NCBI GenBank assembly: GCA_007693765.1
Contig: RECZ01000124.1
Location: 1-46,835, forward strand
Reading direction: 5' to 3'
DNA from: Phycisphaerales bacterium
Lineage (GTDB): Bacteria; Planctomycetota; Phycisphaerae; Phycisphaerales; UBA1924
DNA length: 46,835 nt
Part shown: positions 33,358 through 43,985 of the stretch, piece after piece
Position numbering within the stretch: position 1 is the first letter of the stretch
How the letters are laid out: each line of letters opens with the position of its first letter
Translations under genes and position numbers: made by a program
Notes under the pieces: model-generated
What the model was told of the DNA's origin: nothing
The model's database searches: none
What the model saw: only the letters and a program-made list of their open reading frames with translations

Positions 33358-33813
33358 GTGCCGCTGATGCGTCGGTGGCACGCGCTGGTCGCGGCGCTCG
33401 CCCCGTCGCGTCCTCCGCCGCCGCCGCGCCAGGGCCTGCGCGACCCGCTGGGCCCCGCCGGCGAGCGCGTGGCCGCCCGGCACATCCGCGCCGAGGGGAT
33501 GCGCATCCTCGAACGCAACGCCCGCACCCGCGTGGGCGAAGTGGACCTCATCGCCCTCGATCCGGACAAGCGCACCATCGTGCTCGTCGAGGTCAAGGCC
33601 CGGCGCATCGACGCAGAAGACGAGCGGCGCTCGCCGCGCCCCGAGGCGGCGGTGGGGGAGCGCAAACGGCGCAAACTGCTGATGCTGGCCGAGTCGCTCG
33701 CCCGCACGCGCGGGTGGCGAGACCGGCCGATGCGCATCGACGTCGTCGCCGTGGAGTGGCCGGAGCGAGGCCGCCCGCGTGTCCGCCGCTTCGAGCGCGC
33801 GGTCACGTGGTGA
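33358..33813 (+). CDS. yraN: YraN / UPF0102 family endonuclease-like protein
   Basis: 151 residues from the GTG at 33358, two bases after the previous stop; an ATG at 33367 is an alternative. The restriction-endonuclease-like fold of the family is seen: GPAGERVAARHIRAEGMRILERNAR, then VGEVDLIALDPDKRTIVLVEVKARR with the PD-(D/E)xK residues (Asp of GEVDLI, Glu-Val-Lys), and MRIDVVAVEW. Members are thought to be DNA or Holliday-junction-type nucleases, but no firm substrate is known. Its last 11 bases overlap the convergent histidine kinase stop. Confidence 0.9.
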   Translation: MPLMRRWHALVAALAPSRPPPPPRQGLRDPLGPAGERVAARHIRAEGMRILERNARTRVGEVDLIALDPDKRTIVLVEVKARRIDAEDERRSPRPEAAVGERKRRKLLMLAESLARTRGWRDRPMRIDVVAVEWPERGRPRVRRFERAVTW

Positions 33814-35539
33814 GCGTGTCGGCGGCGCCGCGCGGGCCCGCGTCGTCGGCGTCCGGCGATGTCTCTCGCGTGTCGTCGCCGGGCTCGGGTTCGGCGTCCT
33901 CGACGCCGGCTGGCGCATCGGCGTCATCGGCCGCGGCCGGCTCGGGCGGCTTCGGCAGTTCGATCTCGAGCGGCACGAGCAGGCTGAACATCGAGCCGCT
34001 GGCGGGGGCGCTGACGACATGGATCTCGCCCTGCAGCGCGTGTGCGAGCTCCTTGGCGATGGCGAGCCCGAGGCCGGTGCCCGCGTGGTGGCGCGTGTGC
34101 CCGCCGTCGAGCTGGCGGAACTTCTCGAAGATCGTTTTCTGATCCTCCTCGGCGATGCCCGGACCGGTGTCGAGCACGCTCACGCGCACGCGCGGCTCGC
34201 CGTCGGAGCCCACCAGACGCTCGGCCCGCAGCGTGACCATGCCGCCCTCGGGCGTGAACTTCACCGCGTTGCTGAGGAAGTTGAAGACGATCTGCTGGAA
34301 CTTGCGGGGGTCGGTGGTCACCAAGGGCAGGGGCGCCTCGGGTCGGCCCGCGGCGGCCTCTCTGGTCGCGGGCGTCTCGAGCACGAGCCGGATCGACTTG
34401 CGATCCGCCAGCGGGCGGATGAGCGCCCCGAGGCCCTCGCACGTCTCCTCGACGTTCATGGGCTCGAGCCGAAGGTCGAGCTTGCCCGCCTCGATCCGGG
34501 CCATGTCGAGCAACTCGTTGATCATCTCCAGCAGCGAGCGCCCGGCCCCGACGATGTTCTCGAGATAACGGTTGCGCCGGGCGAACTGGGCGTGCCGTTC
34601 GGGCGTGATCTCCGCGGCGCTGGCGTCGCCCTGGGCGATCTCCTGCAACAGCTCCGCGAAGCCGATGATCGAATTCAGCGGCGTGCGCAGCTCGTGGCTG
34701 ACGTTGGCGAGGAACTCCCCCTTGAGCCGCGCCGCCTCGTGCAGGGCGACGTTGCTCTGGGCCAATTCGTTGATGCGCAGGTCGAGGCTGCGGTTGCTCG
34801 AGCGCAGCTGATCCTGCGCGGCGCCGATGTTTTCCAGCATGGCGTTGAACGTCTGCGCCAACTCCTCGAACTCATCACCGGTCTGGATCTCGGCGCGGCT
34901 GGAAAGATCGCCTTCGCGCACGCGCTCGGCTGTTCGGCGCAGTTGTCGCACCGGGCTGAGGATGATCCGCATGGTGATAAGGTAGAACGCGAGGATCGCC
35001 AGGGCCCCCGCCAGCAGCCCCGCCGCGACGACGTACATGCGGTTCACGAAGAGCTGATCGGCCGCCCGCGGCGAGCGGCGCTCCACCAGCACCACGCCGG
35101 TCAGCTCGCCCGTCTCCTGATCGCGCTGCGCGAGGGCGTAGCGGTAGACGCGGGCCGCGTCCTCCCACACGCTCTCGGTGTGCTCCGACGCGGGGCCGGT
35201 GCGACCCGGCTCGGCGGTGAAGCGGCGCACCGCCGCGCCGACGAAGGGCGACGACGAACTCGCGGCCTCGAGGCGGGCGCCCTCGAAGACCTCGATCCGC
35301 TGGCCCGCGGCGTCGGAGTCGCGCGGCGCATCCTCGGTGCGCAGCGCCAGGGGCCAGCCCGCGCTCCGCTCCGCCTGCTGCCACAGGATCGCCAACTGAC
35401 GCGACGTCTCGAGTTGGCTGGCGTCCACGATCGCGCCCATCACGAACCACGGCACGAGCAGCGCGCCCGAGAGGAGCACGAGGATCGCCGCCCCGAAGAG
35501 GAGCTGGCATTTATCGGCGAGGCTCAGCCCGCGGATCAT
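33803..35539 (-). CDS. Membrane sensor histidine kinase, no partner regulator nearby
   Basis: 578 residues. Two membrane helices (about residues 12-37 and 166-190) flank a periplasmic sensor of about 130 residues with no known domain. Then HAMP (ILSPVRQLRRTAERVREGDLSSRAEI), a coiled coil, and the HisKA box FLANVSHELRTPLNSIIGF with the phospho-acceptor His at residue 282. ATPase boxes: N (FNFLSNAVKFTPEGG), G1 (DTGPGIAEED), F (FEKFRQ) and G2 (GTGLGLAIAKELA). The tail of about 60 residues is acidic and Pro/Ala rich. No response regulator is adjacent; it lies 34 bases after panD and may be co-transcribed with rsfS-panD. Confidence 0.92.
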   Translation of the reverse strand: MIRGLSLADKCQLLFGAAILVLLSGALLVPWFVMGAIVDASQLETSRQLAILWQQAERSAGWPLALRTEDAPRDSDAAGQRIEVFEGARLEAASSSSPFVGAAVRRFTAEPGRTGPASEHTESVWEDAARVYRYALAQRDQETGELTGVVLVERRSPRAADQLFVNRMYVVAAGLLAGALAILAFYLITMRIILSPVRQLRRTAERVREGDLSSRAEIQTGDEFEELAQTFNAMLENIGAAQDQLRSSNRSLDLRINELAQSNVALHEAARLKGEFLANVSHELRTPLNSIIGFAELLQEIAQGDASAAEITPERHAQFARRNRYLENIVGAGRSLLEMINELLDMARIEAGKLDLRLEPMNVEETCEGLGALIRPLADRKSIRLVLETPATREAAAGRPEAPLPLVTTDPRKFQQIVFNFLSNAVKFTPEGGMVTLRAERLVGSDGEPRVRVSVLDTGPGIAEEDQKTIFEKFRQLDGGHTRHHAGTGLGLAIAKELAHALQGEIHVVSAPASGSMFSLLVPLEIELPKPPEPAAADDADAPAGVEDAEPEPGDDTRETSPDADDAGPRGAADTLTT

Positions 35540-35573: not shown

Positions 35574-35966
35574 TCAGCGATCGCGCTCGGGGTGCGGCCC
35601 GGGCTCGTAGTGGATGACGTCCTGCACGCGGTTGTCCGGGGTCATGAGCGCGACCGGGGGGCGGTGCGCCCAGTACTCTTCGTCCGTCATGTGCGCGTAA
35701 TGGAAGATGATGACGCGGTCGCCCTTCTCCACGAGATGCGCCGCGGCGCCGTTGACCTCGATCTTCCCCGAGCCACGCTCGCCGGGGAAGACGTACGTCT
35801 CGAACCGGGCCGCGTTGCGGTGGTTGGCCACCAGCACCGCGTCGCTCACGCGGATGCCCGTCGCGTCGAGGATGTCGAGGTCGATGGTGATCGAGCCGAC
35901 GTAGTCCGGGCACGCGGCGGTGACCGTCGCGAGATGGATCTTGGCGAAGAGAACCTTGCGCAGCAC
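35574..35966 (-). CDS. panD: Aspartate 1-decarboxylase
   Basis: 130 residues from the GTG at 35966, with GAGGAA nine bases upstream. Makes beta-alanine for pantothenate and coenzyme A. The proenzyme cleaves itself at Gly24-Ser25, present as YVGSITIDLDIL at exactly these positions, giving a pyruvoyl group. Other conserved parts are KIHLATVT, NAARFETYVFPGERGSGKIEVNGAAAH and GDRVIIFHYAHM. It lies 19 bases after rsfS on the same strand. No maturation factor PanZ is seen. Confidence 0.95.
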   Translation of the reverse strand: MLRKVLFAKIHLATVTAACPDYVGSITIDLDILDATGIRVSDAVLVANHRNAARFETYVFPGERGSGKIEVNGAAAHLVEKGDRVIIFHYAHMTDEEYWAHRPPVALMTPDNRVQDVIHYEPGPHPERDR

Positions 35967-35985
35967 GGTGTCTTGTTCCTCGTGG

Positions 35986-36465
35986 TCAGCGGCGCTGATC
36001 GCTCGCGCCGTTCCGCGCGGCGCCGGCATGGCCGGGGGTTTGTCCGGGGGTTTGTCCGGGGGCGTTGTCGCGTTCCCATTCCACGCGTTGGCTGTCGCCC
36101 CAGAGCATCTCTAGATCGTAATACGCGCGGGCGCCAGGCTCGAAGACGTGCACCACGAGGTCGACGAAGTCCAGCACGATCCACGTCTGCTGCGCCTCAT
36201 CGACGTTCGAGCGGTAGAGGCTGAACCCCCGCTCCTTGGCCAGCCGGGCGACCTCCGACGCGCTGCTGCGGATCTGCCGATCCGACGAGCCGGAGCCGAT
36301 GACGAAGAAGTCCGTCACCAGACTGCGGCCGCGGAGGTCGAGCACGACGACGTTCTCGCACTTATCGTCCGCGAGCGAGCGGGCGGCCTCGATGGCGAAA
36401 GCGCGGGCCGCTTCGTGGTCCTTGCCGGGGGTGGGACGTGGGTGTTGAGGCTGCTCATCGGGCAT
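35986..36465 (-). CDS. rsfS: Ribosomal silencing factor RsfS
   Basis: 159 residues from the ATG at 36465. RsfS binds uL14 and keeps 50S from joining 30S when nutrients are low. The core is clear: ENVVVLDLRGRSLVTDFFVIGSGSSDRQIRSSASEVARLAKERG and WIVLDFVDLVVHVFEPGARAYYDLEMLWGD. The C-terminus has a short Pro/Gly repeat (GQTPGQTPG, from two exact 12-bp units at 36032-36055). No good ribosome site is seen before the ATG. Typically it lies with nadD; here panD and a kinase follow. Confidence 0.95.
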   Translation of the reverse strand: MPDEQPQHPRPTPGKDHEAARAFAIEAARSLADDKCENVVVLDLRGRSLVTDFFVIGSGSSDRQIRSSASEVARLAKERGFSLYRSNVDEAQQTWIVLDFVDLVVHVFEPGARAYYDLEMLWGDSQRVEWERDNAPGQTPGQTPGHAGAARNGASDQRR

Positions 36466-36601
36466 AGGGAGATAGGGTAGCCGCCCCGGAGGACGCGCAT
36501 CCACCCCGGGGCGTTCCGGATCTCGGGAGCCCGCCCCTCGCGGCGATCCCGATGGTACCCTCGGCCCGCCCGGCGCCGCGCCAGGACCAGACCACACTGC
36601 C

Positions 36602-37729
36602 GTGCCAGAACGCAACGTGCCACGACCGTCGATACTTTTCCTGAGCACGTCCTTCCTGACGCGCCGTGAGAACAAGGCGCTGCGGGGCGTGCAACTCTTC
36701 GACATGCTCCTGCTCGAGCAGATGCTCGCCGAGCCCATCAACGTGACGCTCATCGCCGAATCGACGTGGGAACGGCGCCTCCGCGACCGGATCGACCTCA
36801 GCGGGGCGACCGTCATCCGCACGCCCAGCCTCATCAAACCGCTCTGGAACACCCTCGTCGCGGCTCCCAGACTGCTCGCAACGCGCCATGACGCGGTCGT
36901 CGTCGGCAACCCGACGCGCGGCCTCGCCCCGGTGATCCGCCTAATCCGGCGGCGCCACCCCGCGACGCCGTTCACGGTGCTCGCACACCGGGAAGTCCGC
37001 CCCGCCTTCGCCCGCGCCTTCTCCCGCGCCCCAGTGACGGTGGTGTGCGTGAACGACGCCATCGCCACCCACGCCCGCGGCCTCATGCCCGGCGCCCGCG
37101 TCGAGACCTTCTACGGTGTCGCCGACGCGGACCGTTTCTTCCCCCGTGCATCGCCCAAGCCGGCGGGCGAACCCGTCCGTTTCGGCGTGCTCGGCAAACT
37201 CGACAACCCGTGGAAGGGCGCCGACGACGCCGTCCGCGCCTACCTCGCGCTCCCCGATGACCTGCGTGCCCGCTGCCGCCTCTGTCTTGGTTCGTACGAA
37301 CGCCCCCAGAACAAGCCGCGCATCAACGAGCCCGGCGTCGAGGCCCTCGACTGGATGGACTCGAAAGAAACGCCGGGCTTCCTCCGCACGCTCGACGTGC
37401 TGATGGTGCCCTCGACCTCACACGAGACGTTCTCGCAGGCGATCGTGCAGGGCATGCTGACCGGTCTGCCCGTCATCGCCCGCGACATGCCCGTCCTGGC
37501 GGAGAAGCTCGACAATGGCGCGGGGATCGTCGTGGGCGACGTCGGCGCGATGACCGCGGCGATGGCCCGTCTCGCGCAGGAGCCGGAGACGCGCGCCGCC
37601 ATGGGCGCCGCGGCCCGCGCGACGGCGCTGGAGCGCTACGTCTGGCGCACGGACAGATTCCTCGCGGACTACGCCTTAGGCGACGCGGCCGGCTGGCCGG
37701 CCTCGGTCCGCGTCCGCCCCGGCTCGTAG
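36602..37729 (+). CDS. GT4-type glycosyltransferase
   Basis: 375 residues from GTG. Two Rossmann-like halves: the N-terminal SILFLSTSFLTRRENKALRGVQLFDMLL and the C-terminal donor-binding RFGVLGKLDNPWKGADDAV, CRLCLGSYERPQ, then VPSTSHETFSQAIVQGMLTGLPVIARD. In the usual EX7E motif the second Glu is replaced by Gln (ETFSQAIVQ). The donor sugar and acceptor are unknown. It starts next to rsfS on the other strand, and its 3' end overlaps the convergent sulfotransferase by 61 bases. With four sulfotransferases beside it, a role in building a sulfated glycan is a reasonable inference. Confidence 0.8.
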   Translation: MPERNVPRPSILFLSTSFLTRRENKALRGVQLFDMLLLEQMLAEPINVTLIAESTWERRLRDRIDLSGATVIRTPSLIKPLWNTLVAAPRLLATRHDAVVVGNPTRGLAPVIRLIRRRHPATPFTVLAHREVRPAFARAFSRAPVTVVCVNDAIATHARGLMPGARVETFYGVADADRFFPRASPKPAGEPVRFGVLGKLDNPWKGADDAVRAYLALPDDLRARCRLCLGSYERPQNKPRINEPGVEALDWMDSKETPGFLRTLDVLMVPSTSHETFSQAIVQGMLTGLPVIARDMPVLAEKLDNGAGIVVGDVGAMTAAMARLAQEPETRAAMGAAARATALERYVWRTDRFLADYALGDAAGWPASVRVRPGS

Positions 37730-38514
37730 CCGAGTTGGCGCAGCGTGCCGCCGATCGCCTGCTCGACGTCCTCGATGGCGCCCCGCTGCTCATCGCGGTG
37801 CTGGGAGATCTTCTCCGGCTTGATGTGCCCGGTGAGAAACTCGCGGGTCTCATCGTCCATCTTCAATCCAAGGAACGACGCGATCCGCTCGGTCTCTCCC
37901 ACGGGGTCGCGGCAGAGATCCTCGAACCGCGTCTCGAACCGCCGCTCCCGGGGGATCATGCGGGCGGCGTACTCGTTGAACAGATTGACCTGATACGCCC
38001 ACGACCGAGCCGCCTGAACGTGGGGAGGCTCGTGCATCGCATCGATGCGCGTGAGCAGCAGGCGGCCGAGCGTGGTGGACGGGTCGCTGGTGCGGTGGTG
38101 CTTGAAGGCGAGGTCGCGCCCGTCGCGGATGATGTGGATGTACTTCGCGCGGGGGAAGATGTGGTTCAGGTGCGCGATCAAGAGGTAGCACTCCGGGTAT
38201 TTCCATCCCCACGGCGAGCCCTTGATGTTCTTGGTGCGCCAGCGCTGGATGATCTTCGCCAGACGCCGCATGTCTTCGAGCGGCGGGTCGTCGCCGACGT
38301 CCCAGCCGCGGGCGGCGCGGGCGAGTTCGCCGCGGAACCGCTTGTCGATGGGGTCGCCCGTGCCGGTGTTCTTCGTGAAGCCGAGGTCTACGCCGAGCAT
38401 CTGCACGGCGTACGCGAGCACGCGCGTGCCCGAGTGGCCGCGCCCCATCAGCAGCACGGGTTGTTCGTCGCGGAGCGCGTGGAGCGCCTTGTCGGGGTTG
38501 AACAGGAAGGACAT
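37669..38514 (-). CDS. Sulfotransferase family protein (paralogue A)
   Basis: 281 residues, ATG at 38514. PAPS-dependent sulfotransferase fold: the 5'-phosphosulfate loop PVLLMGRGHSGTRVLAYAVQ, the 3'-phosphate motif YIHIIRDGRDLAFKHH (with the usual Arg and Ser/His positions), then WAYQVNLFNEYAARM and RFETRFEDLCRDPVGETERIASFLGL. Close to the gene at 39421: both have the pattern WGWKYPE/WGWKFPE, LGRLLL and SWAxQV. Sulfate acceptor unknown. It is the last gene of a minus-strand run of four sulfotransferases. Confidence 0.82.
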   Translation of the reverse strand: MSFLFNPDKALHALRDEQPVLLMGRGHSGTRVLAYAVQMLGVDLGFTKNTGTGDPIDKRFRGELARAARGWDVGDDPPLEDMRRLAKIIQRWRTKNIKGSPWGWKYPECYLLIAHLNHIFPRAKYIHIIRDGRDLAFKHHRTSDPSTTLGRLLLTRIDAMHEPPHVQAARSWAYQVNLFNEYAARMIPRERRFETRFEDLCRDPVGETERIASFLGLKMDDETREFLTGHIKPEKISQHRDEQRGAIEDVEQAIGGTLRQLGYEPGRTRTEAGQPAASPKA

Positions 38515-38618
38515 ATCGCGCCTCGTGTGCGGAGTGTGGAGTCGGAGGCCCCGATTCCAAGGGCCGGCGCCACCATCATCGACAAGCCGGGCCGCGCGTC
38601 AACAGCGTGGGCGGCTCG

Positions 38619-39413
38619 TCACGACGCCGGCGCCGGCGAACGGCGACCGGGCACGCGGGTGTGCGCGGCCCGGTAGACCTTGTTCCACAGCCTGCCGGTG
38701 CGGTACCGCCAGCGGAAGTCGTGGGTGTAGGTGTTGAACGTGGGGACGCTCGCATCGGGCTCGAGCCCGACGCGCCGGCACCGCTCGGGGAAGACCTCCT
38801 CGACGACGTAGCGGTGGAGTTCGATGTCCAGCGCGTTGTGCTCGCGCGCGAAGGCCAGTTTGGCGCCGTCGGCCAGCACCTCGTTCTTGACGCGGTCGTT
38901 CTTGGGGATGACGTACTTGCGGTAGTTCAGGTTCAGCGGCTCGGGGGTGACCCGCCCGAGCAGGTGCAGCGAGAGGTCGAAGCGCTCCGTCAGGCCGACG
39001 AAGTGGAATCGCGCGATATCGCGCTTCGCCTTTTCGAGGTCCTCCGCGCCGGCGATCTTCTTGACCTGGTAGTTGCGGAAGCGGTCCTCGTCGAGAATCG
39101 TCTGCTCGAAGGAGCGGGTATTGCCGCCCCGGAGCACGCTGTCCTGATACTTCGACACCACGCGCACCACGGGGTCGCGCAGCATCGTCATGTAGAACGG
39201 GGCGGGGACGGGCAGCGCGAGCGGGTCCACGAGGTTGTGCCCCGCGAGGCTCTTGAGGCCGGGAAAGAAGCGACGTGCCCGCGCCAGGTCGTCCGCGCTG
39301 AAACGTTTACTGCGGCAGTGGGGGGCGTGGCAGTGGCGCACGCCGAACGTGTTCTCGAGGATGAACCGGAAGGACGTGCCCGCGGCCTTGGGGATGTGCA
39401 GGAAGACGAACAC
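38619..39413 (-). CDS. Sulfotransferase family 2-type protein
   Basis: 264 residues from GTG, seven bases after the previous stop. The start FVFLHIPKAAGTSFRFILEN is the signature of the Sulfotransfer_2 group that modifies glycan chains (heparan sulfate 2-O and chondroitin types in animals). The 3'-phosphate motif is FYMTMLRDPVVRVVSKYQ. The middle contains GLTERFDLSLHLLGRV, usual for the group. It is of a different subfamily from the two neighbours that flank it. Probably one transcript with the genes at 39421 and 40297. Confidence 0.8.
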   Translation of the reverse strand: MFVFLHIPKAAGTSFRFILENTFGVRHCHAPHCRSKRFSADDLARARRFFPGLKSLAGHNLVDPLALPVPAPFYMTMLRDPVVRVVSKYQDSVLRGGNTRSFEQTILDEDRFRNYQVKKIAGAEDLEKAKRDIARFHFVGLTERFDLSLHLLGRVTPEPLNLNYRKYVIPKNDRVKNEVLADGAKLAFAREHNALDIELHRYVVEEVFPERCRRVGLEPDASVPTFNTYTHDFRWRYRTGRLWNKVYRAAHTRVPGRRSPAPAS

Positions 39414-39420
39414 CGTGCGG

Positions 39421-40281
39421 TCACTCCGGGGCCTTCACGGGCGTCGCAGGGGCGTAGCCGAACGTTTCGAGCGTGGGCCCGATCGCCGCCTCGACCTCCG
39501 CGATCATCTCGGGCGGCTTCTCGCGGTGCTGCGCCGCCTTGGCGGGGTTGACCTTGTCCGCCAGGTACTTGCAGCATTCCTCGGTCACGGGCAAGCCAAG
39601 AAACGTGGCGCACCGTTCGAGCACGACGAGGGGCGTCGTGACAAGATCCTCGAAACGCACACTGAGCAGGCGCCCTTCGGGCAGCGTGGCGGCGAACTCG
39701 GCGAAGCGACGCACCTGAAACGCCCACGACATCGCGCCGCGGATGTGCGCCGGCGCGTGCAGCGCGTTCTCGTGCTGGAGTAGCAGCCGGCCGAGGGTAC
39801 GTTTCGGGTCGTCGGTGAGGTGCGATTTGAACGCCACGTCTCTGCCGTCGCGCAGCAGCTCGATGTAGCGCGCGTTCGGGAACGCCAGCGCCACCACGGG
39901 GCCGATCAGGTACGTCTCCGGGAACTTCCATCCCCACAACGGGCCCGTGGGCCGCATGCCGGCCTCGCGCCGCTGCTCGTCCATCCACTTTCGGGTGCGC
40001 GCCGCGTGCGAGAGAAGGTCGTCCGCTTGGCGACGCGTGGCGCGATCGTCCGTCTCGCCGCGCAGTTGCGCGCAGGCGATGTCCTTGATGCAGTCCGTGA
40101 AGCGCCGGTCTTGGATATCGGCGGTTTTTTTCGTCACGACGGCGCCGAGGTCGACGCCCAGCGATTGGATCGCCCACCCGAGCACACGGGAGCCCGAGTG
40201 CCCGCGCGTCATGATCACGACCGGCGACTGCTCGTGGAGCGCCCGGGCGCGATCGTCAGAGAACATCGAGCGCAACGCCAC
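39421..40281 (-). CDS. Sulfotransferase family protein (paralogue B)
   Basis: 286 residues from the GTG at 40281, with AGGAG nine bases upstream; the ATG at 40266 is possible too. Motifs: SPVVIMTRGHSGSRVLGWAIQ (phosphosulfate loop), ARYIELLRDGRDVAFKSH (3'-phosphate site), WAFQVRRFAEFAATL, RLLSVRFEDLVTTPLVVLERCATFLGL. The residue pattern follows paralogue A over its whole length, so the two come from a duplication, with a different sulfotransferase gene now between them. Distance to the upstream sulfotransferase is 15 bases. Confidence 0.82.
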   Translation of the reverse strand: MALRSMFSDDRARALHEQSPVVIMTRGHSGSRVLGWAIQSLGVDLGAVVTKKTADIQDRRFTDCIKDIACAQLRGETDDRATRRQADDLLSHAARTRKWMDEQRREAGMRPTGPLWGWKFPETYLIGPVVALAFPNARYIELLRDGRDVAFKSHLTDDPKRTLGRLLLQHENALHAPAHIRGAMSWAFQVRRFAEFAATLPEGRLLSVRFEDLVTTPLVVLERCATFLGLPVTEECCKYLADKVNPAKAAQHREKPPEMIAEVEAAIGPTLETFGYAPATPVKAPE

Positions 40282-40296
40282 GCCTTAAATCTCCTG

Positions 40297-41097
40297 TCAG
40301 CCCCGCCCGTCCGAGGCGACCGGGGCGGCGTCGGCGGGCGCGGCGTCCTGCGGCGGGTCCCACTGTGTCGGGTAGCCGAAGGCGCGCTGAAAATCGGCAA
40401 GCCGTTCCAGCACCGGCGTGAGCACTTGCAGCACCTCCGGGTCCGTTGGCGTGGCGCGTGACAGGCTGCGCGTCGTCACTTTCTTGCCGTGCTTGCCGCT
40501 GTCGTGCTTGCGGCTCATGGAGTCGAAGATGCCTAGGTCGCCGTCGAGAGGCCAGTCGATCGCTTTGGCGATCTCTTCGCGGTAGGCGGGCTCCTTCACG
40601 AAGGGCTCGTACCGCACGACGACCACGCGGTCCTTTTCGGCTTCGAGCAGGTCGAGCATCATCGGGGCGGTGCGGAGGAAGAGCTTGGCCGGGAAGGGCT
40701 TGCGGAGGCGCCACTGCGTCTTGTTGCGGTTCTGGTGCTTCTCGTAGTACGAAACGAGCGACGCTCGCGCATCGCGCACCGCCAACGCGATGCGCTTCGG
40801 GTCGTAGCGCCGCATCGCGCCGCGTACGTGGTGGCTGCGGATCTCCTTCACGCCGGCGCGGTCGTGCGCGAAGAGGAACGCCGCGAGCGACTCGGGCGTG
40901 ATCGGCTCCTGCGCGCCGACGTGACGGAAGTACTGTTTCTTGCTCTCGCGGTACGCCCGGCGGGTGGTGAGCCTGGGCTCCGCGAGGCACAGCCGCCTCT
41001 TGTCGGGGTTCGTCAGGAGGTTGGTGAACATCGTCGTGCCGCTGCGGGCGAGGCCGACGACGAGCAGGTCGAGTTGTTGATCGGCTTTGGATGGCAT
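40297..41097 (-). CDS. Sulfotransferase family protein (third type)
   Basis: 266 residues from the ATG at 41097. The N-terminus QLDLLVVGLARSGTTMFTNLL is a P-loop-like phosphosulfate site. The second site is KRIALAVRDARASLVSYYEKH (Arg and Ser positions conserved). The rest differs from paralogues A and B. The C-terminal 30 residues are Ala/Pro/Asp rich. First gene of the four-gene minus-strand run; a terminator of hppA stands upstream, so the run has its own promoter. Confidence 0.78.
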   Translation of the reverse strand: MPSKADQQLDLLVVGLARSGTTMFTNLLTNPDKRRLCLAEPRLTTRRAYRESKKQYFRHVGAQEPITPESLAAFLFAHDRAGVKEIRSHHVRGAMRRYDPKRIALAVRDARASLVSYYEKHQNRNKTQWRLRKPFPAKLFLRTAPMMLDLLEAEKDRVVVVRYEPFVKEPAYREEIAKAIDWPLDGDLGIFDSMSRKHDSGKHGKKVTTRSLSRATPTDPEVLQVLTPVLERLADFQRAFGYPTQWDPPQDAAPADAAPVASDGRG

Positions 41098-41143: not shown

Positions 41144-41174
41144 GAAAAACGCGGGGCGCCCGGGCGCCCCGCGT
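41144..41174 (-). terminator. Intrinsic terminator of hppA
   Basis: A perfect palindrome ACGCGGGGCGC / GCGCCCCGCGT with a 4-base CCGG centre is followed on the minus strand by TTTTTC. It is 30 bases after the hppA stop and separates it from the sulfotransferase run. Confidence 0.85.
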
Positions 41175-41204: not shown

Positions 41205-43985
41205 TCAGTTCAGGCCGATGATGCCGCCCACCACGGGCCCGTACTTGACGATGAGGCCCGCGAACACGACCGAGACGATGGAGATGAGCTTGATGAGGAT
41301 GTTGAGCGAGGGGCCGGAGGTGTCCTTGAAGGGGTCGCCCACGGTGTCGCCGACGACGGTCGCCTTGTGGTCCTCGGAGCCCTTGCCGTAGACGTAGCCT
41401 TCGCCGTTGCCATTGCGGCGCATCTCTTCGGCGCGGGCGCCGATGGCGTCGCGGATCTGCTCGGGCACCTTGTTGCGCATCTCGGTGTTGTTGACGAAAT
41501 CGTCGGCGGTGATGCGCCCGTACGACTCGATGAGCTTCTTGGCGTTGTCCCACGCGCCGCCCGCGTTGGCCATGAAGATGGCGACCGCGAAGCCGGAGGT
41601 CAGGCCGCCGGCGAGCAGGCCCACCACGCCCGGCACGCTCAGCACCAGACCGACGAGGATGGGCACGACGATCGCCAGCACCGCCGGCACGATCATCTCC
41701 TTCTGGGCGCCGGCCGTGGAGATCGAAACGCAGCGGGCGTAATCGGGGTAGTCGACGCCCTCGTGCGAGACCTGCTTGGGCCACTGCTCGGGGTCGCGGA
41801 TCTGCTCCTCGCTCATGCCCTGGGCGCGGAAGGCCTCACGCATTTTGGCGAACTGGCGACGGCACTCGACCATCATCCGGTTCGCGGCGCGGCCCACGGC
41901 GTTCATCGTCATGGCGCAGAAGAGGAACGCGAGCAGCACGCCCATGAACAGGCCGCCCAGCACGCGCGGGTTGAGCAGTGTCACGTCGTAGTAGTTCAGC
42001 ACGTCCTTGAGCGAGCCGTTCGTGACGGCCACAAGCTCGACGTTGACGGTGTGCATCTGCTCGCCCTCGCCGTACGCGCCCCGCGCGTACACAACGCGGT
42101 CGGTCGCGGAGGGCATGTCGCCCCGCACGCCGGCGTCGTCGGCGGGGCCACGGACGAGCGTCAGCACCTGGCCGACGGCCATGTTGTCGTAGGCTTCCTC
42201 GGTGAGCTGGTTGCGGTCGATGAGCAGGCCGGCGTCGACGTGCGCAGCGCCCTCGGCGCCGGGGATCACGATGATGAACTTGCCGAAGCCCTGGTGCACG
42301 GCGTGGGGGCCGGCGGGCGCGGTGTAGGCGATCGTCTCGTGCGACGAACGCGCCTGCGTCGTGAGCTGCGTCTGCACGATCTGGATGTACGCCGCGAAGA
42401 GCGCCAGCGCCGTCAGCGCCGCGGAGCCGATGGCGAAGCCCTTGCCGGTCGCGGCGGTGGTGTTGCCCAGCGAGTCGAGCATGTCGGTGCGCTGGCGGAC
42501 GTGGGGGGGCTGGCCGGTCATCTCGGCGTTGCCGCCGGCGTTGTCGGCGATGGGGCCGTAGGCGTCCGTCGCGAGGGTGATGCCCAGCGTGGCGAGCATG
42601 CCGACCGCGGCGATGCCCACGCCGTAGAGGCCCATCAGGAAGTTGTCGCCGCCGCCCGCGAAGGTGAAGGCCGCGATGATCGCGATGGAGACGGTGAGCA
42701 GCGCCGCCCACGTCGACTTCATGCCCTCGGCGATGCCGGCGATGATCACCGTCGCGGGGCCGGTGAGGGCCTGCATGGCGATCTTCTTGGTCGGGGGGTG
42801 CTCGTACGAGGTGTAGTACTCGGTCGCGTAGGCGATCACCAGACCGGCGAGAAGACCAGATGTGATCGCGAGGCCGATGCCCCACCACGTGAAGGGCACG
42901 TCCATTTCGCCCGTCGCGCCGGGGCCCACGAGCAGGAAGAGCATCGCGAAGGCCGCAAAGAAGATCAGGCCCGAGGCCACGTACACGCCCTTGTGCAGGC
43001 CCTTGAGCAACTCGGCGAAGCCGGCGCCCTCACGGGCTTTCACGGTGAACACGCCCGCGATCGAGCAGAAGATGCCCAGACCGGCCAGCGCCAGCGGGGC
43101 GCAGGCGAGCAGCATGGCCAGACGCATCGCTTCAGCGCCGCTGGCGATCGTGAACGCCGCCGCGGCGCCGAGGGCCATCGTGGCGAGCATCGAGCCGTAG
43201 TACGACTCGTAGAGGTCGGCGCCCATGCCGGCGACGTCGCCGACGTTGTCGCCCACGTTGTCGGCGATGGTCGCGGGGTTGCGGGCGTCGTCCTCGGGGA
43301 TGCCCGCCTCGACCTTGCCCACGAGGTCGGCGCCCACGTCCGCGGCCTTGGTGTAGATGCCGCCGCCCACACGCGCAAAGAGCGCCTGCGTCGAGGCGCC
43401 CATGCCGAAGGAGAGCATGATCGTCGTCAGCACGCGGAGGTCCGTCGGCAGGCCCAGCGACTCACCGAAGGTGTTGAGCACGAAGAACCACACCGAGACG
43501 TCCAGCAGCGCGAAGCCCACCACCACCATGCCCATGACGGCGCCGGAGCGGAAGGCGACGGTCAGGCCGTCGTTGAGCGATTCTTTCGCCGCGGCCGCGG
43601 TGCGGGCGGAGGCGTTGGTCGCCATCTTCATGCCGAACCAGCCGCACAGGCCGGAGAGGAAGCCCGCCACCGGCACGCCGATGACAGAGAGCGTCGGCTG
43701 CAGGTTCAGCCCGTAGCTGAGGAAGGCCAGCACGCCCACCAGCACCACGAAGACCATCGCGACGACCTTGTACTGCCGCGAGAGATACGCCATGGCGCCG
43801 TCGCGCACGGCTTGCGCGATGCGGATCATCTCCGCGTCGCCCTCGCTCCGCTCCATGACCTTTCGTGAGAACACGAAGGCCATCGCCAGCGCCGTGATCG
43901 CGCCGAGCGGTGCGAGGTAGTACAGGAAGGGGAGCGACGAAGCCAATGTCGTCACGGGGGAGATGGCGTGGGCCAGGTCAGTCAC
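41205..43985 (-). CDS. hppA: Membrane-bound ion-pumping pyrophosphatase, K+-dependent type, with long extra loop
   Basis: 926 residues from a GTG, with AGGAG eight bases upstream. Splits pyrophosphate and moves H+ or Na+ out of the cell. Signature parts: GGGIYTKAADVGADLVGKVEAGIPEDD, DARNPATIADNVGDNVGD with the Asp-rich metal site, DSLGNTTAATGKGFAIGSAALT, and DNAGGAWDNAKK-like ANAGGAWDNAKKLIE plus GDTVGDPFKDTSGPSLN. The Ala after NTTA and Gly at the following site match K+-dependent enzymes. About 125 residues (536-660, near bases 42000-42370) are inserted between two helices, compared with common lengths of 660-770. The ion, H+ or Na+, is not decidable by eye. Confidence 0.95.
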   Translation of the reverse strand: MTDLAHAISPVTTLASSLPFLYYLAPLGAITALAMAFVFSRKVMERSEGDAEMIRIAQAVRDGAMAYLSRQYKVVAMVFVVLVGVLAFLSYGLNLQPTLSVIGVPVAGFLSGLCGWFGMKMATNASARTAAAAKESLNDGLTVAFRSGAVMGMVVVGFALLDVSVWFFVLNTFGESLGLPTDLRVLTTIMLSFGMGASTQALFARVGGGIYTKAADVGADLVGKVEAGIPEDDARNPATIADNVGDNVGDVAGMGADLYESYYGSMLATMALGAAAAFTIASGAEAMRLAMLLACAPLALAGLGIFCSIAGVFTVKAREGAGFAELLKGLHKGVYVASGLIFFAAFAMLFLLVGPGATGEMDVPFTWWGIGLAITSGLLAGLVIAYATEYYTSYEHPPTKKIAMQALTGPATVIIAGIAEGMKSTWAALLTVSIAIIAAFTFAGGGDNFLMGLYGVGIAAVGMLATLGITLATDAYGPIADNAGGNAEMTGQPPHVRQRTDMLDSLGNTTAATGKGFAIGSAALTALALFAAYIQIVQTQLTTQARSSHETIAYTAPAGPHAVHQGFGKFIIVIPGAEGAAHVDAGLLIDRNQLTEEAYDNMAVGQVLTLVRGPADDAGVRGDMPSATDRVVYARGAYGEGEQMHTVNVELVAVTNGSLKDVLNYYDVTLLNPRVLGGLFMGVLLAFLFCAMTMNAVGRAANRMMVECRRQFAKMREAFRAQGMSEEQIRDPEQWPKQVSHEGVDYPDYARCVSISTAGAQKEMIVPAVLAIVVPILVGLVLSVPGVVGLLAGGLTSGFAVAIFMANAGGAWDNAKKLIESYGRITADDFVNNTEMRNKVPEQIRDAIGARAEEMRRNGNGEGYVYGKGSEDHKATVVGDTVGDPFKDTSGPSLNILIKLISIVSVVFAGLIVKYGPVVGGIIGLN

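Follow-up and report, generated by a model that had tools for sequence, protein, structure and literature searches.

A recurrent sulfotransferase and glycosyltransferase cassette with a probable role in surface-glycan sulfation, located between a membrane pyrophosphatase gene and rsfS in a Phycisphaerales bacterium

INTRODUCTION

A stretch of 46,835 nucleotides from a Phycisphaerales bacterium (GTDB lineage Bacteria; Planctomycetota; Phycisphaerae; Phycisphaerales; UBA1924) carries one GT4-type glycosyltransferase gene next to four sulfotransferase genes. We refer to this stretch, which spans positions 1 to 46,835 of contig RECZ01000124.1 in GenBank assembly GCA_007693765.1, as the window. Do these five genes form a locus for a sulfated glycan, as an original prediction made from the sequence alone had proposed? 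Our analysis finds that a core of the block recurs at the same site in another genus of the family. The block probably represents an exchangeable cassette for surface-glycan decoration, set between a membrane pyrophosphatase gene and rsfS and working by sulfation that depends on 3'-phosphoadenosine 5'-phosphosulfate (PAPS).

Sulfated glycans have been measured in granular sludges, and the accessible text of that study calls the pathways for bacterial sulfated glycosaminoglycan-like polymers “not well known” (PMC10483923). Sulfated glycans have also been measured in microbial mats, and the accessible part of the same Shark Bay study reports that, under a BLAST criterion of 30% identity, some planctomycete metagenome-assembled genomes carry sulfotransferases and most planctomycete orders lack them (PMC9723792). 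In the accessible portions of the open-licence literature, we found no description of a sulfotransferase site between a pyrophosphatase gene and rsfS. Enzymes of this kind are known, and the novelty is that a cassette of variable content recurs at one fixed site.

RESULTS

The cassette and its insertion site

The window corresponds to contig C144 in a draft genome of 2.9 Mb in 176 contigs, which is 96% complete. All five open reading frames (ORFs) of the cassette are present, with a coding-like GC content at third codon positions of 0.88 to 0.94:

36602..37729, plus strand, GT4-type glycosyltransferase (Pfam Glyco_trans_1_4, 48.9 bits; cut-off 27)
37669..38514, minus strand, sulfotransferase A, ST_A (Sulfotransfer_3, 54.9 bits; cut-off 27)
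38619..39413, minus strand, sulfotransferase B, ST_B (Sulfotransfer_2, 22.3 bits; cut-off 22; residues 2-108 only)
39421..40281, minus strand, sulfotransferase C, ST_C (Sulfotransfer_3, 55.8 bits; cut-off 27)
40297..41097, minus strand, sulfotransferase D, ST_D (Sulfotransfer_3, 30.3 bits; cut-off 27)

The original prediction of four sulfotransferase genes in a tight minus-strand run against a GT4 gene is confirmed by the ORFs, the Pfam matches, and the short gaps. Transcription runs in the order D, C, B, A. The gap between D and C is 15 bp, that between C and B is 7 bp, and that between B and A is 104 bp, and the convergent GT4 and ST_A genes overlap at their 3' ends by 61 bp in ORF coordinates.

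The cassette occupies the interval between a membrane pyrophosphatase gene, which shares the strand of ST_D and lies upstream of it, and rsfS, which is followed downstream by panD and a histidine kinase gene. The flanking features are as follows:

33803..35539, minus strand, sensor histidine kinase (HAMP/HisKA/HATPase_c)
35574..36029, minus strand, panD (Asp_decarbox, 131 bits)
35986..36498, minus strand, rsfS, the downstream flank (RsfS, 90.8 bits)
41149..41174, minus strand, terminator-like hairpin with an 11-bp stem and T5, between the pyrophosphatase gene and ST_D
41205..43985, minus strand, membrane pyrophosphatase, the upstream flank (H_PPase, 775 bits)

The same site is empty in five genomes of the family (G009, G041, G039, G042, and G095), where rsfS follows the pyrophosphatase gene on the same strand with 15 to 192 bp between the matched ends. 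The histidine kinase gene behind rsfS recurs in G042, G041, and G009, and panD recurs in G042. Because the pyrophosphatase gene and rsfS directly adjoin in these five relatives, the cassette is a block placed between two genes that are adjacent in the nearest kin of the window. Across the 40 pyrophosphatase 3' stretches that were fetched, rsfS was found in six, namely the five empty-site genomes and G085; four stretches were shorter than 7 kb (G039 with 555 bp, G037, G019, and G047).

Other genomes carry sulfotransferase genes at this site. In G031, which belongs to another genus of the same family, the interval holds homologs of D (57% identity), C (58%), and GT4 (61%), followed by Methyltransf_24 and GSCFA genes and then rsfS at the contig end. 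Since the D-C-GT4 core is syntenic in another genus, the cluster appears to be beyond chance. Conservation in relatives, which the original prediction had put forward as a check, thus extends to D-C-GT4 and stops short of A and B. The G085 interval contains two other sulfotransferase genes and a gene for a kinase of the 3-deoxy-D-manno-oct-2-ulosonic acid (Kdo)/WaaP family, whose ORF overlaps the next sulfotransferase ORF by 4 bases. G043 and G119, which belong to one genus, have sulfotransferases of another type behind the pyrophosphatase gene, with GT4 and more sulfotransferase genes a few kilobases further on, and G022 has a single sulfotransferase gene beside the pyrophosphatase gene. A sulfotransferase gene directly adjoins the 3' side of the pyrophosphatase gene in 6 of the 43 genomes read, on the same strand in five and convergent in G085. 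G136, with a sulfotransferase gene about 3 kb away, is excluded from this count.

The gap between the pyrophosphatase gene and the cassette has its own features. G031 has a hairpin and T run in the same gap as the window. The predicted RNA fold of the window gap is not unusual against shuffled sequences (z of -1.06), and the terminator call is based on the presence of a stem followed by a T run. The gap in G022 has a hairpin with no T run behind it. In G043, G119, and G022, the sulfotransferase ORF begins 24 to 43 bp after the pump gene on the same strand, and a hairpin followed by a T run is absent by eye. Simple read-through from the pyrophosphatase gene into the cassette was considered and is weakened by the terminator-like hairpins in the window and G031.

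The pyrophosphatase itself was detected in 74 of 120 family genomes at an E value of 1e-100. The window protein has 926 residues, and the matching NCBIfam models mostly have about 650 to 740 positions. Its extra stretch spans approximately residues 545 to 665, where several of the NCBIfam matches break, and complete pyrophosphatases of the family have open frames of about 900 to 1,020 residues.

Recurrence of the glycosyltransferase and sulfotransferase pairing

The window-type GT4 is present in 27 of 163 family genomes at an E value of 1e-45, and the copy in G031 stands in the same place. The surroundings of 31 GT4 copies were read, and the four that lie beside the pyrophosphatase gene (window, G031, G043, and G119) all have sulfotransferase neighbors. 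A Fisher test against 26 GT4 loci away from the pyrophosphatase gene gives a p of 3.6e-5, among genomes that are related. These 26 loci hold 27 copies, which correspond to the 30 GT4 places plus G046, minus the four. Some of the stretches are short or cut by a contig end (for example, L070, L178, L179, and L180), such that a more distant sulfotransferase gene would escape detection.

A phylogeny of the GT4 proteins places the window and G031 apart from G043 and G119, and a single clade of the four is rejected by the approximately unbiased (AU) test (p of 7e-7). The GT4 trees do not include G115 and G046, and the second tree also omits L081. Because one GT4 clade is rejected, GT4 and sulfotransferases would have been brought together or exchanged here on more than one occasion, unless their pairing is ancient and was followed by many losses or moves. 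The rejection of one clade does not distinguish among gain, loss, and transfer. Window-type GT4 genes without sulfotransferases seem to adjoin recurring genes in relatives (L063, L073, and L074; L066 and L068), which by eye we take to be deoxyhypusine-synthase-like in three loci and ATP synthase gamma in two.

We evaluated the frequency of sulfotransferases in the family by counting Sulfotransfer_3 matches per genome at an E value of 1e-5. Matches are present in 89 of 120 family genomes, with up to 23 in one genome; G133, which does not appear in the list of genomes with a match, was set to 0. The mean over the 43 genomes with a pyrophosphatase flank read is 9.4 sulfotransferases per genome. 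With an assumed 3,000 genes per genome, 0.14 direct sulfotransferase neighbors of the pyrophosphatase gene are expected in these 43 genomes versus 6 seen, a comparison that serves as a guide only, given the post hoc choice of the site and the relatedness of the genomes. Adjacency to a sulfotransferase, treated as a label on a quick pyrophosphatase tree, requires at least four changes, and G042, the nearest neighbor of the window on that tree, has an empty site. G131, which is near-identical to G099, was entered in this tree as lacking a sulfotransferase, with no flank read.

Types, motifs, and predicted structure of the sulfotransferases

ST_A, ST_C, and ST_D pass the Pfam cut-offs of both Sulfotransfer_3 and Sulfotransfer_1. 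A and C are 44% identical paralogs, and B and D are separate types, so the three subtypes named in the original prediction are a fair description when drawn as A/C, B, and D. The status of A as a recent duplicate of C is undecided, as tree support for their sister relationship is borderline (AU p of 0.0495) and A forms a long branch. ST_C contains RGHSG and RDGRD..AFK motifs. R26, G27, S29, and G30 and R144, D145, G146, R147, and D148 are invariant in an alignment of 24 A/C-type sequences, as are H6, K9, and G12, R79 and P81, and S87 in an alignment of eight sequences of the B set. We take these conserved residues to be the 5' and 3' PAPS-binding motifs.

The original prediction assigned one of the enzymes to the Sulfotransfer_2 group. 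B does pass that cut-off, and the match is marginal. Within the B set, B included, seven of the eight sequences match Sulfotransfer_2 at an E value of 0.01 (best 3.5e-8) and five match Gal-3-O sulfotransferase. The closest relative of B is 33% identical (in G076). The single-sequence structure model of B has a predicted local distance difference test (pLDDT) score of 32 and was not used, and a sequence search of the PDB with B returned only two aminotransferases (E of 0.4 to 0.5). D is rare. Its relatives are in G031, G019 (36%), and G047 (33%), with otherwise only weak matches, and at an E value of 1e-12 it was found in its own genome alone among 397 sampled genomes of the class, a sample that cannot contain G031. 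The PDB search with D returned a designed repeat protein (E of 9e-4) and tyrosine sulfotransferases (E of 0.2 to 0.3), and the top match for C is a tyrosine sulfotransferase. None of A to D matches Stf0 (PF09037) in Pfam up to an E value of 0.1.

The structure of C is predicted with confidence (pLDDT of 91.4), and comparison with solved structures gives a best Z score of 18.7. Sulfotransferase domains of polyketide and olefin synthases follow at 17.4 and 16.4, and heparan sulfate N- and 3-O-sulfotransferases score lower, at about 12. The predicted fold speaks for a sulfotransferase and leaves its acceptor unnamed. By the Pfam cut-offs and conserved motifs, together with the predicted fold of C, we assign A to D to the PAPS-dependent sulfotransferase superfamily.

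Supply of PAPS and a second locus

By Pfam, the five cassette genes comprise GT4 and sulfotransferases only, with no PAPS-synthesis gene among them. The original prediction had stated that the window lacks sulfate-activation genes. This holds for adenosine 5'-phosphosulfate (APS) kinase, a search for which matched only contig C74 of this genome; other sulfate-assimilation genes were not scanned for ORF by ORF in the window, and no search of the genome was directed at ATP sulfurylase. The expectation that PAPS would come from elsewhere agrees with the APS kinase gene on C74 and an ATP sulfurylase gene on contig C42. The former stands beside an inositol-monophosphatase-family gene, which we call CysQ-like, and a gene for a transporter with a match to CitMHS and a weaker one to Na_sulph_symp.

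The ATP sulfurylase gene on C42 is surrounded by three further sulfotransferase genes, two GT4 genes, a polysaccharide pyruvyltransferase-like gene, and a hexapeptide transferase gene, with epimerase-like genes (by eye) and two large proteins unnamed by Pfam. Because ATP sulfurylase stands among sulfotransferases, GT4, and other glycan genes, C42 is the fuller polysaccharide-sulfation locus of this genome. The window block is for that reason an accessory cassette of small size and not a complete polysaccharide locus. The genome also contains a Kdo transferase gene, which suggests that the bacterium makes lipopolysaccharide (LPS).

C-type sulfotransferases in other genomes

Two peptide patterns, run against 84,980 species genomes, yielded 22 loci with C-type sulfotransferase genes. 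By record title, these belong to Planctomycetota, Verrucomicrobiales, SAR324, Gemmatimonadota, Desulfobacteraceae, delta-proteobacteria, Tectomicrobia, an unplaced bacterium, and one Nanoarchaeota contig, and they include close copies (L080/L082, L093/L094, L090/L092, and L078/L085). A glycosyltransferase gene lies within 1 kb of the C-type gene in 11 of the 22 loci, and several of these pairs overlap or are less than 100 bp apart. Pfam confirms nine of the 11 and was not run on L082, and the glycosyltransferase of L075 was assigned by its 61% identity to the window GT4. Glycosyltransferase matches are concentrated near C-type genes, with 18 in 95 kb (up to 2.5 kb away) versus 6 in 193 kb farther out, as counted with profiles built partly from neighbors that they later matched.

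The arrangements vary. L095 reads KdtA-LpxK-DUF4254-GT9-ST (ST denoting the sulfotransferase), with 9 bp between the last two ORFs. L076 has GT2, an FkbM methyltransferase, GT4, and a YrbL-type protein, followed by ST on the opposite strand, and L080 has GT2-GT4-ST and then a second, convergent sulfotransferase. In L081 (Verrucomicrobiales), a window-type GT4 gene (32% identity) precedes the C-type gene by about 40 to 60 bp, and an FkbM methyltransferase gene follows. A gene for a DSBA-like protein stands after the C-type gene in L078 (by Pfam) and in L083, L084, and L085 (by eye). In L093, the locus titled Nanoarchaeota, the C-type gene is at the end of a contig with 34% GC and is very close on the tree to that of L094 from SAR324; L093 is probably a misassembly or contaminant.

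DISCUSSION

We consider the following route probable in outline. GT4 would add a sugar to a lipid-linked or LPS-core-type oligosaccharide in the cytosol, and the C/A-type enzymes and D would then transfer sulfate from PAPS to hydroxyls of this glycan before export, with B as a probable additional and more divergent sulfating enzyme. PAPS would be supplied by the ATP sulfurylase of C42 and the APS kinase of C74, and the sulfated product would leave through the export machinery of the host itself. The five enzymes would share one product, their acceptor would be a glycan, their reactions would be cytosolic, and the LPS core rather than an exopolysaccharide would be modified. The LPS core is perhaps the best first guess, given that KdtA-LpxK and a Kdo/WaaP-family kinase occur at homologous or neighboring-kind loci, and it is the weakest step of the proposal.

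The sulfated-glycan interpretation of the original prediction, with a glycan as the putative acceptor, is partly supported. The syntenic D-C-GT4 core, a second GT4 lineage beside the pyrophosphatase gene, the 11 C-type loci with a glycosyltransferase, and the PAPS genes speak for it. Several observations weigh against it. Neither a sulfotransferase nor a pyrophosphatase gene was detected in the stretches read around the other 27 of the 31 GT4 copies, and no glycosyltransferase was detected within 1 kb at 11 of the 22 C-type loci. The latter include L078, L083, L084, and L085 of SAR324, which have quite different neighbors. Sulfotransferases are common in the family, so their presence alone is unsurprising and the enzymes are ordinary. 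The G031 locus shares just D, C, and GT4 with the window and lacks A and B, and the Sulfotransfer_2 match of B exceeds its cut-off by 0.3 bits. By Pfam, a flippase, a polymerase, and an NDP-sugar gene are all absent from the five cassette genes, and the fuller locus is on C42. Finally, because terminator-like hairpins lie between them, the pyrophosphatase gene and the cassette need not share a transcript in the window and G031.

Could the 3' side of the pyrophosphatase gene be merely a permissive insertion spot, where horizontally acquired sulfotransferases and GT4 act on unrelated substrates? The contents of the cassette vary among genomes, sulfotransferases abound in the family with as many as 23 matches per genome, and the site is empty in G042, the nearest relative on the quick pyrophosphatase tree. 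Against such a spot, the D-C-GT4 order is kept in two genera, and GT4 at the site has sulfotransferases beside it in every one of the four cases. The 7- and 15-bp gaps moreover suggest a single transcript for D, C, and B, and the direct neighbors exceed the expected number, subject to the post hoc choice of site and the relatedness of the genomes. We therefore regard this explanation as unlikely. Less likely still is that A, C, and D sulfate protein tyrosines, a small molecule, or a lipid. The solved folds nearest to the C model are tyrosylprotein sulfotransferases from human and tick (Z of 18.7 to 18.0), which counts against a glycan acceptor, and the polyketide- and olefin-synthase sulfotransferase domains come next; the best PDB sequence match of C is likewise a tyrosine sulfotransferase (E of 1.6e-5). 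These fold matches are only 15 to 22% identical, however, too distant to carry the substrate, and the Pfam-named neighbors of the homologs, as far as these were scanned, include genes for glycosyltransferases, FkbM methyltransferases, LPS kinase-like proteins, and heptosyltransferase-family proteins.

The cassette might instead serve the exopolysaccharide of C42, rather than LPS, by providing extra sulfotransferases. This is a variant within the glycan interpretation, and its probability overlaps with that of the surface-glycan cassette proposed above; taken by itself, we hold it to be somewhat unlikely. C42 offers ATP sulfurylase, three sulfotransferases, two GT4, and the pyruvyltransferase-like and hexapeptide transferase genes, but the two loci are on separate contigs, and the hints of an LPS-type acceptor (KdtA-LpxK and the Kdo/WaaP kinase) come from homologous loci elsewhere. 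A bolder extension of the surface-glycan cassette, which we offer as a speculation of low probability, is that the interval between the pyrophosphatase gene and rsfS is an exchangeable island for surface-glycan sulfation in this planctomycete family, comparable to variable O-antigen loci with constant flanks, with sets of GT4 and sulfotransferase genes assembled at least twice independently. The reason would lie in the neighboring pump, as ATP sulfurylase releases pyrophosphate and its removal by the pump would pull sulfate activation forward. A functional link between the cassette and the pyrophosphatase is an attractive hypothesis. The hairpins in the window and G031 weigh against co-transcription of the two, whereas the gaps of 24 to 43 bp in G043, G119, and G022 show no hairpin followed by a T run by eye.

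Like the cassette, the capsule locus of Vibrio sp. KMM 8419 combines sulfotransferases and glycosyltransferases, and there the sulfated glycan is chemically established; as described in the accessible text, it is an 80-gene cluster with cysNDC and an ABC transporter, whereas the window cassette has five genes and none for PAPS, sugar nucleotides, or export (PMC11641403). LpsS of Sinorhizobium meliloti is a bacterial LPS sulfotransferase and so acts on the acceptor class suspected here, but it belongs to the Stf0 family according to the accessible part of the source that cites it (PMC12445080), in contrast to the Sulfotransfer_3 and Sulfotransfer_2 enzymes of the window. Pontiella sulfatireligans F21, from another phylum of the Planctomycetes-Verrucomicrobia-Chlamydiae group, has a putative sulfated glycosaminoglycan-like locus with a sulfotransferase among GT2 and GT4 genes, and its sulfated exopolymers have been measured (PMC7356697). 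That locus is large, with eight potential hexosaminyltransferases, and the accessible text of the study does not mention the pyrophosphatase-rsfS site. The tyrosylprotein sulfotransferases that come nearest to C in fold (5wrj, 3ap1, and 8w5z; Z of about 18) differ from it in being eukaryotic enzymes that act on protein tyrosine, at 15 to 17% identity.

The compact five-gene cassette at a recognizable site provides concrete genes to study, and its empty-site relatives serve as natural controls. Were the cassette truly linked to the pyrophosphate pump, sulfation of the cell surface would be tied to membrane energetics.

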